Positions 11,007-32,792 of a DNA stretch of 38,207 nt are shown here, piece by piece. The DNA is from Deltaproteobacteria bacterium (GTDB lineage: Bacteria > Desulfobacterota > DSM-4660 > Desulfatiglandales > Desulfatiglandaceae). Position 1 is the stretch's first letter; each line of letters opens with the position of its first letter. The position numbers and the translations under genes were made by a program. The stretch spans positions 1-38,207 of the forward strand of contig JAFDHL010000008.1 of assembly GCA_019308785.1 (NCBI GenBank), written 5' to 3'. The notes below the pieces were generated by a model. The model had not been told where the DNA came from. It ran no database searches and saw nothing but the letters and a program-made list of their open reading frames with translations.

Positions 11007-11213
11007 TCATCTGATTCCCGTGCATGGATTCTTAAGTATGGTGTCCAAATACTGACCGATCTTGTCAAAATGAAGGGCATGGGACTCTTTTTTCAGAATC
11101 GACTCGGCCAGAGCGCTGGACTTGGCAATCCTGCAAACCAAGGCGGGCGGCGGGCTGCCCGGGTTTAGGCCATATCCTGTGTCCTGGGCGTAAAAGAGAC
11201 CCATGACCTTCAA
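11007..11213 (-). CDS. Small hypothetical protein downstream of the M48 gene (68 aa)
   Basis: An open frame on the minus strand beginning 37 bases after the M48 protease stop. The start could be TTG 11213 or ATG 11204. The product reads MGLFYAQDTGYGLNPGSPPP, then ALVCRIAKSSALAESILKK and FDKIGQYLDTILKNP. Codon third positions are GC-rich like the neighbouring genes, supporting real coding. No convincing Shine-Dalgarno is present and no family is recognised. It may be a short operon partner of the protease or the relic of a larger gene. Bases 10902-11006 and 11214-11250 hold nothing I can identify. Confidence 0.45.
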   Translation of the reverse strand: MKVMGLFYAQDTGYGLNPGSPPPALVCRIAKSSALAESILKKESHALHFDKIGQYLDTILKNPCTGIR

Positions 11214-11250
11214 GATACGAAGAGTTTTGAACGTTACTTATCTATTTTTG

Positions 11251-12079: not shown

Positions 12080-12283
12080 TTAGAAAGGTCTCATGGCACC
12101 GCAATCGGGGCACTGCCAGCTAATACTGCTGCAGGTCAATCCCCAAAGATTTTCCTCCATACAGGCATTGCAAATCTGAAACCCGCAGGGGCAGGTCCAG
12201 CAAAAAAGCTGTTTATTCCCACAGCAGCTGCACACATATTCCCTTTTAACGCGTTTTCTTTTGTTTACCTTCTCCTTTTCCAT
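12080..12283 (-). CDS. Small cysteine-rich zinc-ribbon protein (67 aa)
   Basis: A 67-residue protein with a basic start (MEKEKVNKRKRVKREYV) followed by several Cys pairs: CSCCG, CWTCPCG, CNAC, a lone Cys, and CPDCG near the end. About ten Cys residues in 50 suggest two zinc ribbons or one ribbon and a finger. There is no catalytic motif or signal peptide. Its family is unknown to me; similar short proteins often bind nucleic acid or act as metal-dependent adaptors. ATG 12281-12283 is the only in-frame start, and the upstream sequence offers no good Shine-Dalgarno. The gene begins only a few bases past the structured hairpin region at 12297-12640, so that region may supply or disrupt its leader. 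Confidence 0.7.
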   Translation of the reverse strand: MEKEKVNKRKRVKREYVCSCCGNKQLFCWTCPCGFQICNACMEENLWGLTCSSISWQCPDCGAMRPF

Positions 12284-12296
12284 TTAAGAAATTGCT

Positions 12297-12640
12297 CGAA
12301 AAAAGCTTGTTTCAACAATAAAGAATCCCCACCCAAAGGACGGGGTTCCACTACTGCATACTTGCGGGAGGCGAAGGCATAGGACTCTTCGAAAGGACGC
12401 ATCTTTCGGATAAAAACTGCTCTGTCCTGTGCCGCGGCCCGAGTCGCGGTCTGCACTGCAACGGCCCAATGGAGTTTTGATCCTTCCGTTCCAGCAGACC
12501 GTAGGAAGGGCCGCTTGCAGCGTAGGAGTAGATGCGTACTGGAGAAGAGTGCTATGCCGAGGCGTTTGACCGGCATAGCCAACCAACATAACCCCACCAT
12601 AAGGGTTGGGCTTTGTTACCCAGTGATTAATCACACCCAA
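12297..12640 (-). ncRNA. Candidate structured RNA or non-autonomous IS200/IS605-like element
   Basis: Read on the minus strand, this 340-base gap is a series of strong helices. GTTGGG...CCCAAC encloses the perfect palindrome GTGATTAATCAC. AACCC...GGGTT is next, then GCTATGCCG/CGGCATAGC (12551-12579). A ten-pair helix (12458-12467 with 12508-12518) continues into CCTTCC/GGAAGG. CCGCG/CGCGG lies near 12432-12449 and CGAAAG/CTTTCG at 12390-12408. The 3' end is a GAACCCC...GGGGATTC hairpin (12324-12350) that resembles the right-end hairpin of IS200/IS605 tnpB elements. Frames inside do not look like protein. The closest known idea is a stand-alone omega/HEARO-like RNA; I could not verify that by alignment. 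Strand follows the terminal hairpin's orientation. Confidence 0.45.
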
Positions 12641-12660
12641 CGGACATGGATTAATCGGTT

Positions 12661-13467
12661 CTACAATTCAACCATCGGCCCAGTTTTATCCTGTTTGCTG
12701 ATCAGAAGCCTGGTATTATCAAGACCGCATTTTGCTAAGGCTTTTTCCGCTTCTTGGCAGGCCTTGTCCGGTTCATTATTGGTTTCACTCAAGTGGGCAA
12801 GAACCACAACTCTTAGATCATCGTGGGCAACAGCACGAAGAAGATCTCCTGCCTGCTCATTTGACAGGTGGCCGTCCTGTCCCTTTATCCTCCTTTGAAG
12901 ATCCAGTGGGTAAGGTCCATTATCCAGCATCTCCTGATCATAGTTGAATTCTATAATCAGGGCATGACACCCTTTCAAGCGATCTTCCACAAGTCTTGTG
13001 CTCCGCCCAAGATCGGTAACCAGACCTATTCTTGTGCCATTAGAGTTTGAAGACCCACCGAGGGCAGTAAAAACAAGGCCGAATGGATCGGATGCATCGT
13101 GGCACTTGGTGAAGGTCTCCACACCAAGGTCCCTGATGGCCAGGCTTTGTCCGGTTTGAAAGATTACCGGTCTGGCCAGGTTGCCCAGCATCTTAAGCCC
13201 TTTTTTAAAAGTCTTGCGGTTAATATAAACGGGCAGATCATAGCGGCGAGATAAAGGCCCTGCCCCTCTAATATGATCCCCGTGCTCATGTGTTATAATG
13301 AGAGCATCAAGACTTTCCGGCTGAACCCCGATCAACTCGAGACGTCGCTCGATCTCACTGCAACTCAGGCCGGCATCAACTATGATTCTTGTATTTTCAG
13401 TCTCGACGTAACAGGCATTTCCGCCACTGCCTGAAGCCAAAACAGAAAATCGTATTGCATTTTTCAT
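12661..13467 (-). CDS. MBL-fold metallo-hydrolase, WalJ/YycJ type
   Basis: A 268-residue metallo-beta-lactamase-fold protein. It opens with RFSVLASGSGGNACYVETEN, the WalJ/YycJ signature. The metal motif THEHGDHIRG is at residues ~59-68, with further ligands probably H113 in KCHDASDPFG, D143 in LVTDLG and H221 in VLAHLSETNN. YycJ-type enzymes have been described as 5'-3' double-strand DNA exonucleases linked to mismatch repair or cell-wall control, so the exact activity is open. The ATG at 13465-13467 overlaps the dut stop in an ATGA arrangement, so it is the last gene of the translation cluster. Downstream lies the structured RNA region. Confidence 0.88.
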   Translation of the reverse strand: MKNAIRFSVLASGSGGNACYVETENTRIIVDAGLSCSEIERRLELIGVQPESLDALIITHEHGDHIRGAGPLSRRYDLPVYINRKTFKKGLKMLGNLARPVIFQTGQSLAIRDLGVETFTKCHDASDPFGLVFTALGGSSNSNGTRIGLVTDLGRSTRLVEDRLKGCHALIIEFNYDQEMLDNGPYPLDLQRRIKGQDGHLSNEQAGDLLRAVAHDDLRVVVLAHLSETNNEPDKACQEAEKALAKCGLDNTRLLISKQDKTGPMVEL

Positions 13468-20549: not shown

Positions 20550-20566
20550 AATACGATTTGAAAGAC

Positions 20567-20750
20567 GTAACTACTCAGGTTATTTAGGCCGAAGGCTGAA
20601 GACTGTTAATAAAGGGCTGAACATGGTACACATGGGGATCCTATGATTGTATTACTGTAACTGCTTTATCCCTGAAAAGAACTCTTTCGGTTCTCTTTCC
20701 CCTTCAGTCTTCAGTCTAAACACCTTCAGCCTGACTACGTGAGTAGTCAC
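20567..20750 (-). repeat. MITE-like dispersed repeat, copy 1 (between infB and ylxP)
   Basis: A ~184-base element whose ends are imperfect inverted repeats: GTAACTACTCAGGT at 20567 and the complement of GTGACTACTCACGT at 20750. Its minus-strand sequence matches the element at 29090-29317 along nearly the whole length, including AAGAGAACCGAAAGAGTTC and TTCAGCCCTTTA. One end also carries the GACTAC-N4-GTAGTC hairpin. No ORF is credible inside. It interrupts the infB-ylxP part of the translation operon. Confidence 0.8.
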
Positions 20751-29060: not shown

Positions 29061-29089
29061 CAGTCGCCTTTTAAAATTTAATATTATTG

Positions 29090-29317
29090 GTGATTACTCA
29101 CGTAGTCAGGATTAAGGTGTTTAGACTGAAGACTGTCCACCCTCCGTAGTCCCGCTTGAGCGGGACGGAGGACGGGAAGGGGAAAGAGAACCGAAAGAGT
29201 TCTTTTCAGAGATAAAACAGTTACAATAACACAATAATAGGAGCCCCATTTGTACCACGTTCAGCCCTTTACTAATCCCGCGTTTCGCGGGACCTTCAAC
29301 CTAAATAACCTGAGCAG
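29090..29317 (+). repeat. MITE-like dispersed repeat, copy 2, flanked by 12-bp direct repeats
   Basis: The element begins GTGATTACTCACGTAGTCAGG and ends CCTGAGCAG. It matches copy 1 (20567-20750, opposite orientation) with one extra ~40-base hairpin insert (about 29135-29175) and a changed segment near 29276. TTAATATTATTG occurs exactly at both flanks (29078-29089 and 29318-29329), the pattern of a target-site duplication. It fills the lnt-prfB gap and codes for nothing. Confidence 0.82.
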
Positions 29318-29412
29318 TTAATATTATTGTTATTATTGATGACTAAACAAATTAGTATCGACAAGGGTATAATCTTTTACACAAGTAAACCAAATAGCAC
29401 AGGAGAATCAAA

Positions 29413-32740: not shown

Positions 32741-32776
32741 GTGACTACTCACGTAGTCAGCCTAAATAACCTGAGT
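32741..32776. repeat. Internally deleted remnant of the MITE-like repeat (copy 3)
   Basis: The first 20 bases (GTGACTACTCACGTAGTCAG) match one end of copies 1 and 2, and the next 16 (CCTAAATAACCTGAGT) match the opposite end. The whole interior is absent. It lies between mutS and the amidase gene. Confidence 0.75.
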
Positions 32777-32792
32777 TACCTCTGTTCTTTCT

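Follow-up and report, generated by a model that had tools for sequence, protein, structure and literature searches.

What is the strongly folded stretch of intergenic DNA that separates an MBL-fold hydrolase gene from a small zinc-ribbon gene in this member of the Desulfatiglandaceae? The window (the whole 38,207-nucleotide stretch analysed here) comes from a draft genome of 399 contigs, and a preliminary description of it offered three readings of positions 12297-12640: a stand-alone omega/HEARO-type RNA, a non-autonomous transposon or an unknown class of RNA. The second of these is supported by the data presented below, namely the existence of copies, the insertion, ends resembling those of IS200-type elements of the family and a comparable element without tnpA in a relative. 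We consider it likely that the stretch is a non-autonomous IS200/IS605 derivative, a palindrome-associated transposable element (PATE) of about 305 bases inserted between the two genes. It is repeated in the genome, constitutes extra DNA relative to the conserved gene order, has a hairpin near each end and contains no gene. The features are listed in Table 1.

Table 1. Features of the element and its neighbours in the window. The ends of the element (the right one being approximate) were inferred by comparing copies.
Feature	Position	Strand	Basis
Probable whole element, ~305 bases, transposase-less IS200/IS605-type repeat (PATE-like)	12318..12622	-	copies in C327 (+C276) and C298; synteny gap
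Left end: TGGGTAACAAAGC, subterminal hairpin 12607-12590, then GGTTATG..GGCTATGCCGGTC	12563..12622	-	similarity to L009/L008 left ends; end profile
Perfect nine-pair stem GCTATGCCG/CGGCATAGC, adjoining left end	12551..12579	-	inverted-repeat search
Long imperfect palindrome, 183 bases	12376..12558	-	inverted-repeat search; copies in C327 and C298; pair counts; repeat scan
Right end: hairpin CCCCGTCCTTTGGGTGGGG (12345-12327), then ATTCTTTAT	12318..12351	-	best right-end profile match in window; motif also in C276, C298, C99 and L008
Flank AATCCATGTCCGTTGGGTGTGATTAATCAC, containing palindrome GTGATTAATCAC	12623..12652	-	local match to a solo right end on contig C105, E=0.005
Small zinc-ribbon protein gene, 67 aa, downstream neighbour	12080..12283	-	in 8 other genomes an orthologue adjoins the MBL-fold gene
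MBL-fold hydrolase gene, upstream neighbour	12661..13467	-	PF00753, PF12706

Structure of the intergenic region

The stems reported previously are all present in the sequence. They include the perfect nine-pair stem (12551-12559 with 12571-12579), a ten-pair stem with one bulge (12458-12467, GCAACGGCCC, with 12508-12518, GGGCCGCTTGC; checked by eye), the GAACCCC...GGGGATTC end (minus strand, 12348-12323) and the palindrome GTGATTAATCAC (minus strand, 12623-12634). The dominant feature had escaped mention: positions 12376-12558 form a single long imperfect inverted repeat, whose 29-base outer arms are 83% complementary. One of its arms overlaps the 3' half of the nine-pair stem, and the genome has a second repeat family whose inverted repeats are similar to its outer arms, GGCATAG(C/G)ACTCTTC...CGCATCT.

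The minus-strand RNA of the 377-base gap has a predicted folding energy of -138.1 kcal/mol compared with -116.6 +/- 4.9 for shuffled sequences (z = -4.39; none of 100 as stable). Since the plus strand folds equally well (z = -4.84), this points to a palindrome rather than to an RNA. The right-end hairpin was flagged as terminator-like in a scan, which is not evidence of function.

The region has no coding capacity of note: its ORFs gave no Pfam match, and some 305 bases are too short for a transposase gene. Ten large ORFs of the window have assignments other than transposase or TnpB. That tnpA and tnpB are missing from the window, as had been stated, is borne out by genome-wide searches for Y1_Tnp and TnpB, neither of which gave a match on this contig.

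Insertion relative to synteny

The gene order MBL-fold, zinc-ribbon, M48 peptidase is kept in relatives. In five of them the first two genes are separated by 9 (L065), 13 (L084), 47 (L086), 61 (L080) and 91 (L085) bases, some gene starts being approximate, versus 380 here, from which we conclude that the stretch is an insertion. The closest relative possessing both genes (L063) has a spacer of 170 bases, and two species of one genus (L071 and L073) have spacers of 277 and 278 bases; evidently this gap takes other insertions too. The gap of the latter pair contains a different palindromic insert, apparently in the opposite orientation.

The empty site is supported at the level of genes and not to the exact base. 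On the left the copies are flanked by ATCAC, TTGAC and TCTGC, and TTTAC precedes the right-end motif.

The bases directly beyond the left end resemble a solo right end and are probably what is left of an older copy, decayed and reduced to its right terminus. The GTGA beside the palindrome GTGATTAATCAC, which had been likened to the sites favoured by HEARO elements, is accordingly read as flanking sequence, probably the tail of this older end.

Copies within the genome

A search of the genome with the gap as query revealed two further full copies and a remnant of a right end, all in intergenic gaps; the aligned parts of the full copies are 74-95% identical. The first (C327:5272-5529) is 74% identical over query positions 59-292. 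Because the ends of contigs C327 and C276 have 114 identical bases in common, they are probably the two halves of a single locus carrying one copy. The second (C298:2483-2658) aligns in two pieces of 79% and 95% identity, one of which covers query positions 37-131, and the stop codon of the gene upstream marks where its left end begins. From the translations alone, we take the gene upstream of the C327 copy to be argJ, and the neighbours of the C298 copy to encode a GNAT acetyltransferase and UvrC.

The motif TTTTACTGGG(G/A)AACAAA(G/A)CTG(C/T)(C/T)CTTT(G/A)GGTGG(G/A)(G/A)ATTC marks the right end in C276, C298 and C99. A second repeat, CATGGGGGTCTCTTTTCAAAAG, of which the genome has many copies, separates the palindrome from the right end in both C298 and C327/C276, so that both sister copies host a nested, different inverted-repeat element. 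Most of the palindrome interior has been lost or replaced in C298.

The element body was found in none of the 45 other genomes of the family, and a search across 84 others of the order did not find it either; matches there are to the end motifs only. An exact 20-mer from the palindrome arm had no match in collections of genome and viral contigs, from which genomes near our own were possibly excluded. The exact right-end motif occurs in two contigs of the genome contig collection, both with solo ends.

Several other repeats were noticed in this genome. An intergenic repeat (GGCATGGGACTCTTTTTTCAGAATCGACTCGGCC...) lies at window positions 11070-11240; related sequences are found around 4830 in C298 and around 20130-20340 in C256, and one arm of the window repeat is similar to an arm of the 183-base palindrome. 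A third family, with ends around GTGACTACTCACGTAGTCAG, occupies intergenic gaps at 20566-20750, 29076-29330 and 32741-32779 of the window and also C327:183-367. A genome-wide inverted-repeat family with the ends GGCCATGGGGGTCTCTTTTCAAAA is represented by 54 matching pieces, some of them nested in the PATE-like element; its loci include L137:252-526, L136:351-574 and L139:284-472.

Is the region a structured RNA?

A stand-alone omega/HEARO-type guide RNA, or another structured RNA, transcribed from the minus strand would account for the stable fold (z = -4.4), and comparison of the three copies shows three pairs in which both partners have changed. An example is the outer stem GGCATAG/CTATGCC, which has become GGTATGG/CCATACC in C327. 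Of the copies with covarying stems and empty sites that such an RNA had led one to look for, the copies do exist and empty sites are found at gene level, but covariation comes to 3 of 59 pairs, and three double changes among three copies are too few to argue from. A search of Rfam both at the gathering threshold and at E <= 10 produced sub-threshold matches only, the best being 6A (E=0.18); HEARO (RF02033) and omega families were missing even at E <= 10, and the genome is without TnpB; a HEARO or omega RNA is not supported. Further arguments against a conserved RNA of any class are that the interior has been replaced in C298, that the body is confined to one genome, with nothing in 84 others of the order, that covariation is minimal and that both strands fold equally well. 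The promoter scan detected no promoter upstream of the element. We therefore regard an RNA as very improbable here.

Resemblance of the ends to IS200-type elements

Over 47 bases, the left end of the element shares 79% identity with the left ends of two loci in relatives. One of these (L009) is an IS200-like element with a Y1_Tnp gene (PF01797, E=6e-37); the other (L008) is a derivative which has both ends and no transposase, and its right end is a hairpin followed by GGATTCTTTA, as in the window. In further tnpA elements of the family, the right end consists of a hairpin followed by GGAT(N)TTTA(C).

Profiles built from the ends of all relatives, L009 and L008 included, matched the left end at 12615-12563 with E=6e-6 and the right end with E=0.07, the latter being the best match in the window. 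When sequences picked by their similarity to the window were left out, the values were E=0.12 (left) and E=0.23 (right); the left end then ranked second, behind a match in a coding region, and the right end first. The left-end profile match at 8176-8134 was rejected as a hairpin in a coding region. Taken singly these profiles are weak. The left- and right-end matches do, however, lie on one strand, in the correct order and about 270 bases apart, and this joint agreement gives moderate support for IS200-type ends.

Solo right-end hairpins (a hairpin plus GGATTCTTTA) were seen at L006, L007, L010, L011, L171, L172 and L174, and at C105:10051-10082 and C327:128-164. They occur in several genomes of the order, often after a second hairpin, and look like terminal-only IS200 remnants.

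Other classes of repeat

Could the mobile unit be the palindrome by itself? As a classical MITE or other small mobile repeat, 12376-12558 would have been moved by a DDE or unknown transposase, with the flanking hairpins representing only a favoured target. Its 29-base, 83% complementary arms agree with this, as does the fact that they resemble those of a genome-wide inverted-repeat family (GGCCATGGGGGTCTCTTTTCAAAAG...CGCAT), and mobile repeats are known to insert into PATEs (PMC3119063). Yet the copies remain similar beyond the arms, as far as the hairpin of the left end (query 37-131 in C298 and 59-292 in C327), the right-end motif recurs in C298 and C276, and no target duplication was seen at the arms; a MITE is thus an unlikely explanation.

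The genome has ten Y1_Tnp matches, eight of which have open frames of 325-359 aa and are RAYT-like. A REP/BIME-type array made by these long relatives would fit with the recurrence of the terminal hairpins as solo copies and with the motif common to both ends in direct orientation. Against it, the flanks of these genes do not match the element significantly, the copy number is low (three full copies and a few solo ends, not tens to hundreds), and no unit headed by GTAG or GGAG was noticed. Such an array seems to us quite improbable.

Proposed mobilisation

If the stretch is a PATE-like element, by analogy with IS608 and PATEs (PMC7290912, PMC3119063) its two subterminal hairpins would, in single-stranded DNA, be the binding sites of a dimeric Y1 (HUH tyrosine) TnpA supplied in trans. 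This enzyme would cut on the left 3' of a TTTAC-like target (here ATCAC) and on the right after TTTA(C/T), and the element would move without target duplication. The long internal palindrome may be a passenger, its arms relating it to another inverted-repeat family in the genome. Any effect of the insert today would be due to its forming a hairpin between two genes of a possible MBL-zinc ribbon-M48 transcript. We give little credence to an undescribed composite class, in which an inverted-repeat unit inside IS200-type ends is moved in trans and the palindrome is kept by compensating changes as a functional DNA or RNA hairpin.

The genome itself contains no close IS200 tnpA and, in a genome-wide search, no TnpB (PF07282). 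Its own Y1_Tnp genes were rejected as parents since their flanks do not match the element. With no matching TnpA found in this draft of 399 contigs, the present copy is probably immobile now.

Comparison with known elements

The conspicuous structured spacer is explained as ordinary, composite mobile DNA; most likely it is an element of a kind already known and not a new guide RNA. Structure-based RNA discovery should take warning from it, since an IS200/IS605 derivative that lacks a transposase and contains nested palindromes receives the score of a strongly folded RNA. The element is also a bacterial example of features described for haloarchaeal PATEs, namely solo ends, repeats nested inside and the absence of an intact parent transposase from the genome.

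HEARO (RF02033) and omega RNAs are likewise large, structured and associated with transposons; here a covariance-model match is missing, and neither the TnpB search nor the assignments of ten large window ORFs disclosed a nuclease gene. REP/BIME sequences with their RAYT transposases (PMC2817692) share with our element the intergenic palindromes and a Y1 transposase relative in the genome, whereas a GTAG-type head and inverted REP pairs were not seen here and the flanks of the RAYT-like genes are unmatched.

IS200-type elements of the family (L009/L032, L033, L034 and L052; PF01797) resemble the element in their ends, with a left hairpin followed by GGTTA/GGTCA and the GGCTNTGCC motif, and a right hairpin followed by GGAT(N)TTTA(C). 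Unlike it they carry tnpA, and their left ends start with TAGAAAYCC rather than TGGGNAAYAAAGC.

PATEs are known from Haloquadratum walsbyi, where nested repeats and solo ends have been described (PMC3119063), and a PATE-like element has been reported from Halanaerobium hydrogeniformans (PMC7290912). As with these, our element is too short for a transposase, has palindromes near its termini that are alike at the two ends and probably related to those of IS200/IS605 elements, lacks a terminal inverted repeat, occurs as terminal-only solo copies and has other repeats nested inside. It differs in its organism, its 183-base interior palindrome, its low copy number and the presence of a matching tnpA in relatives only.
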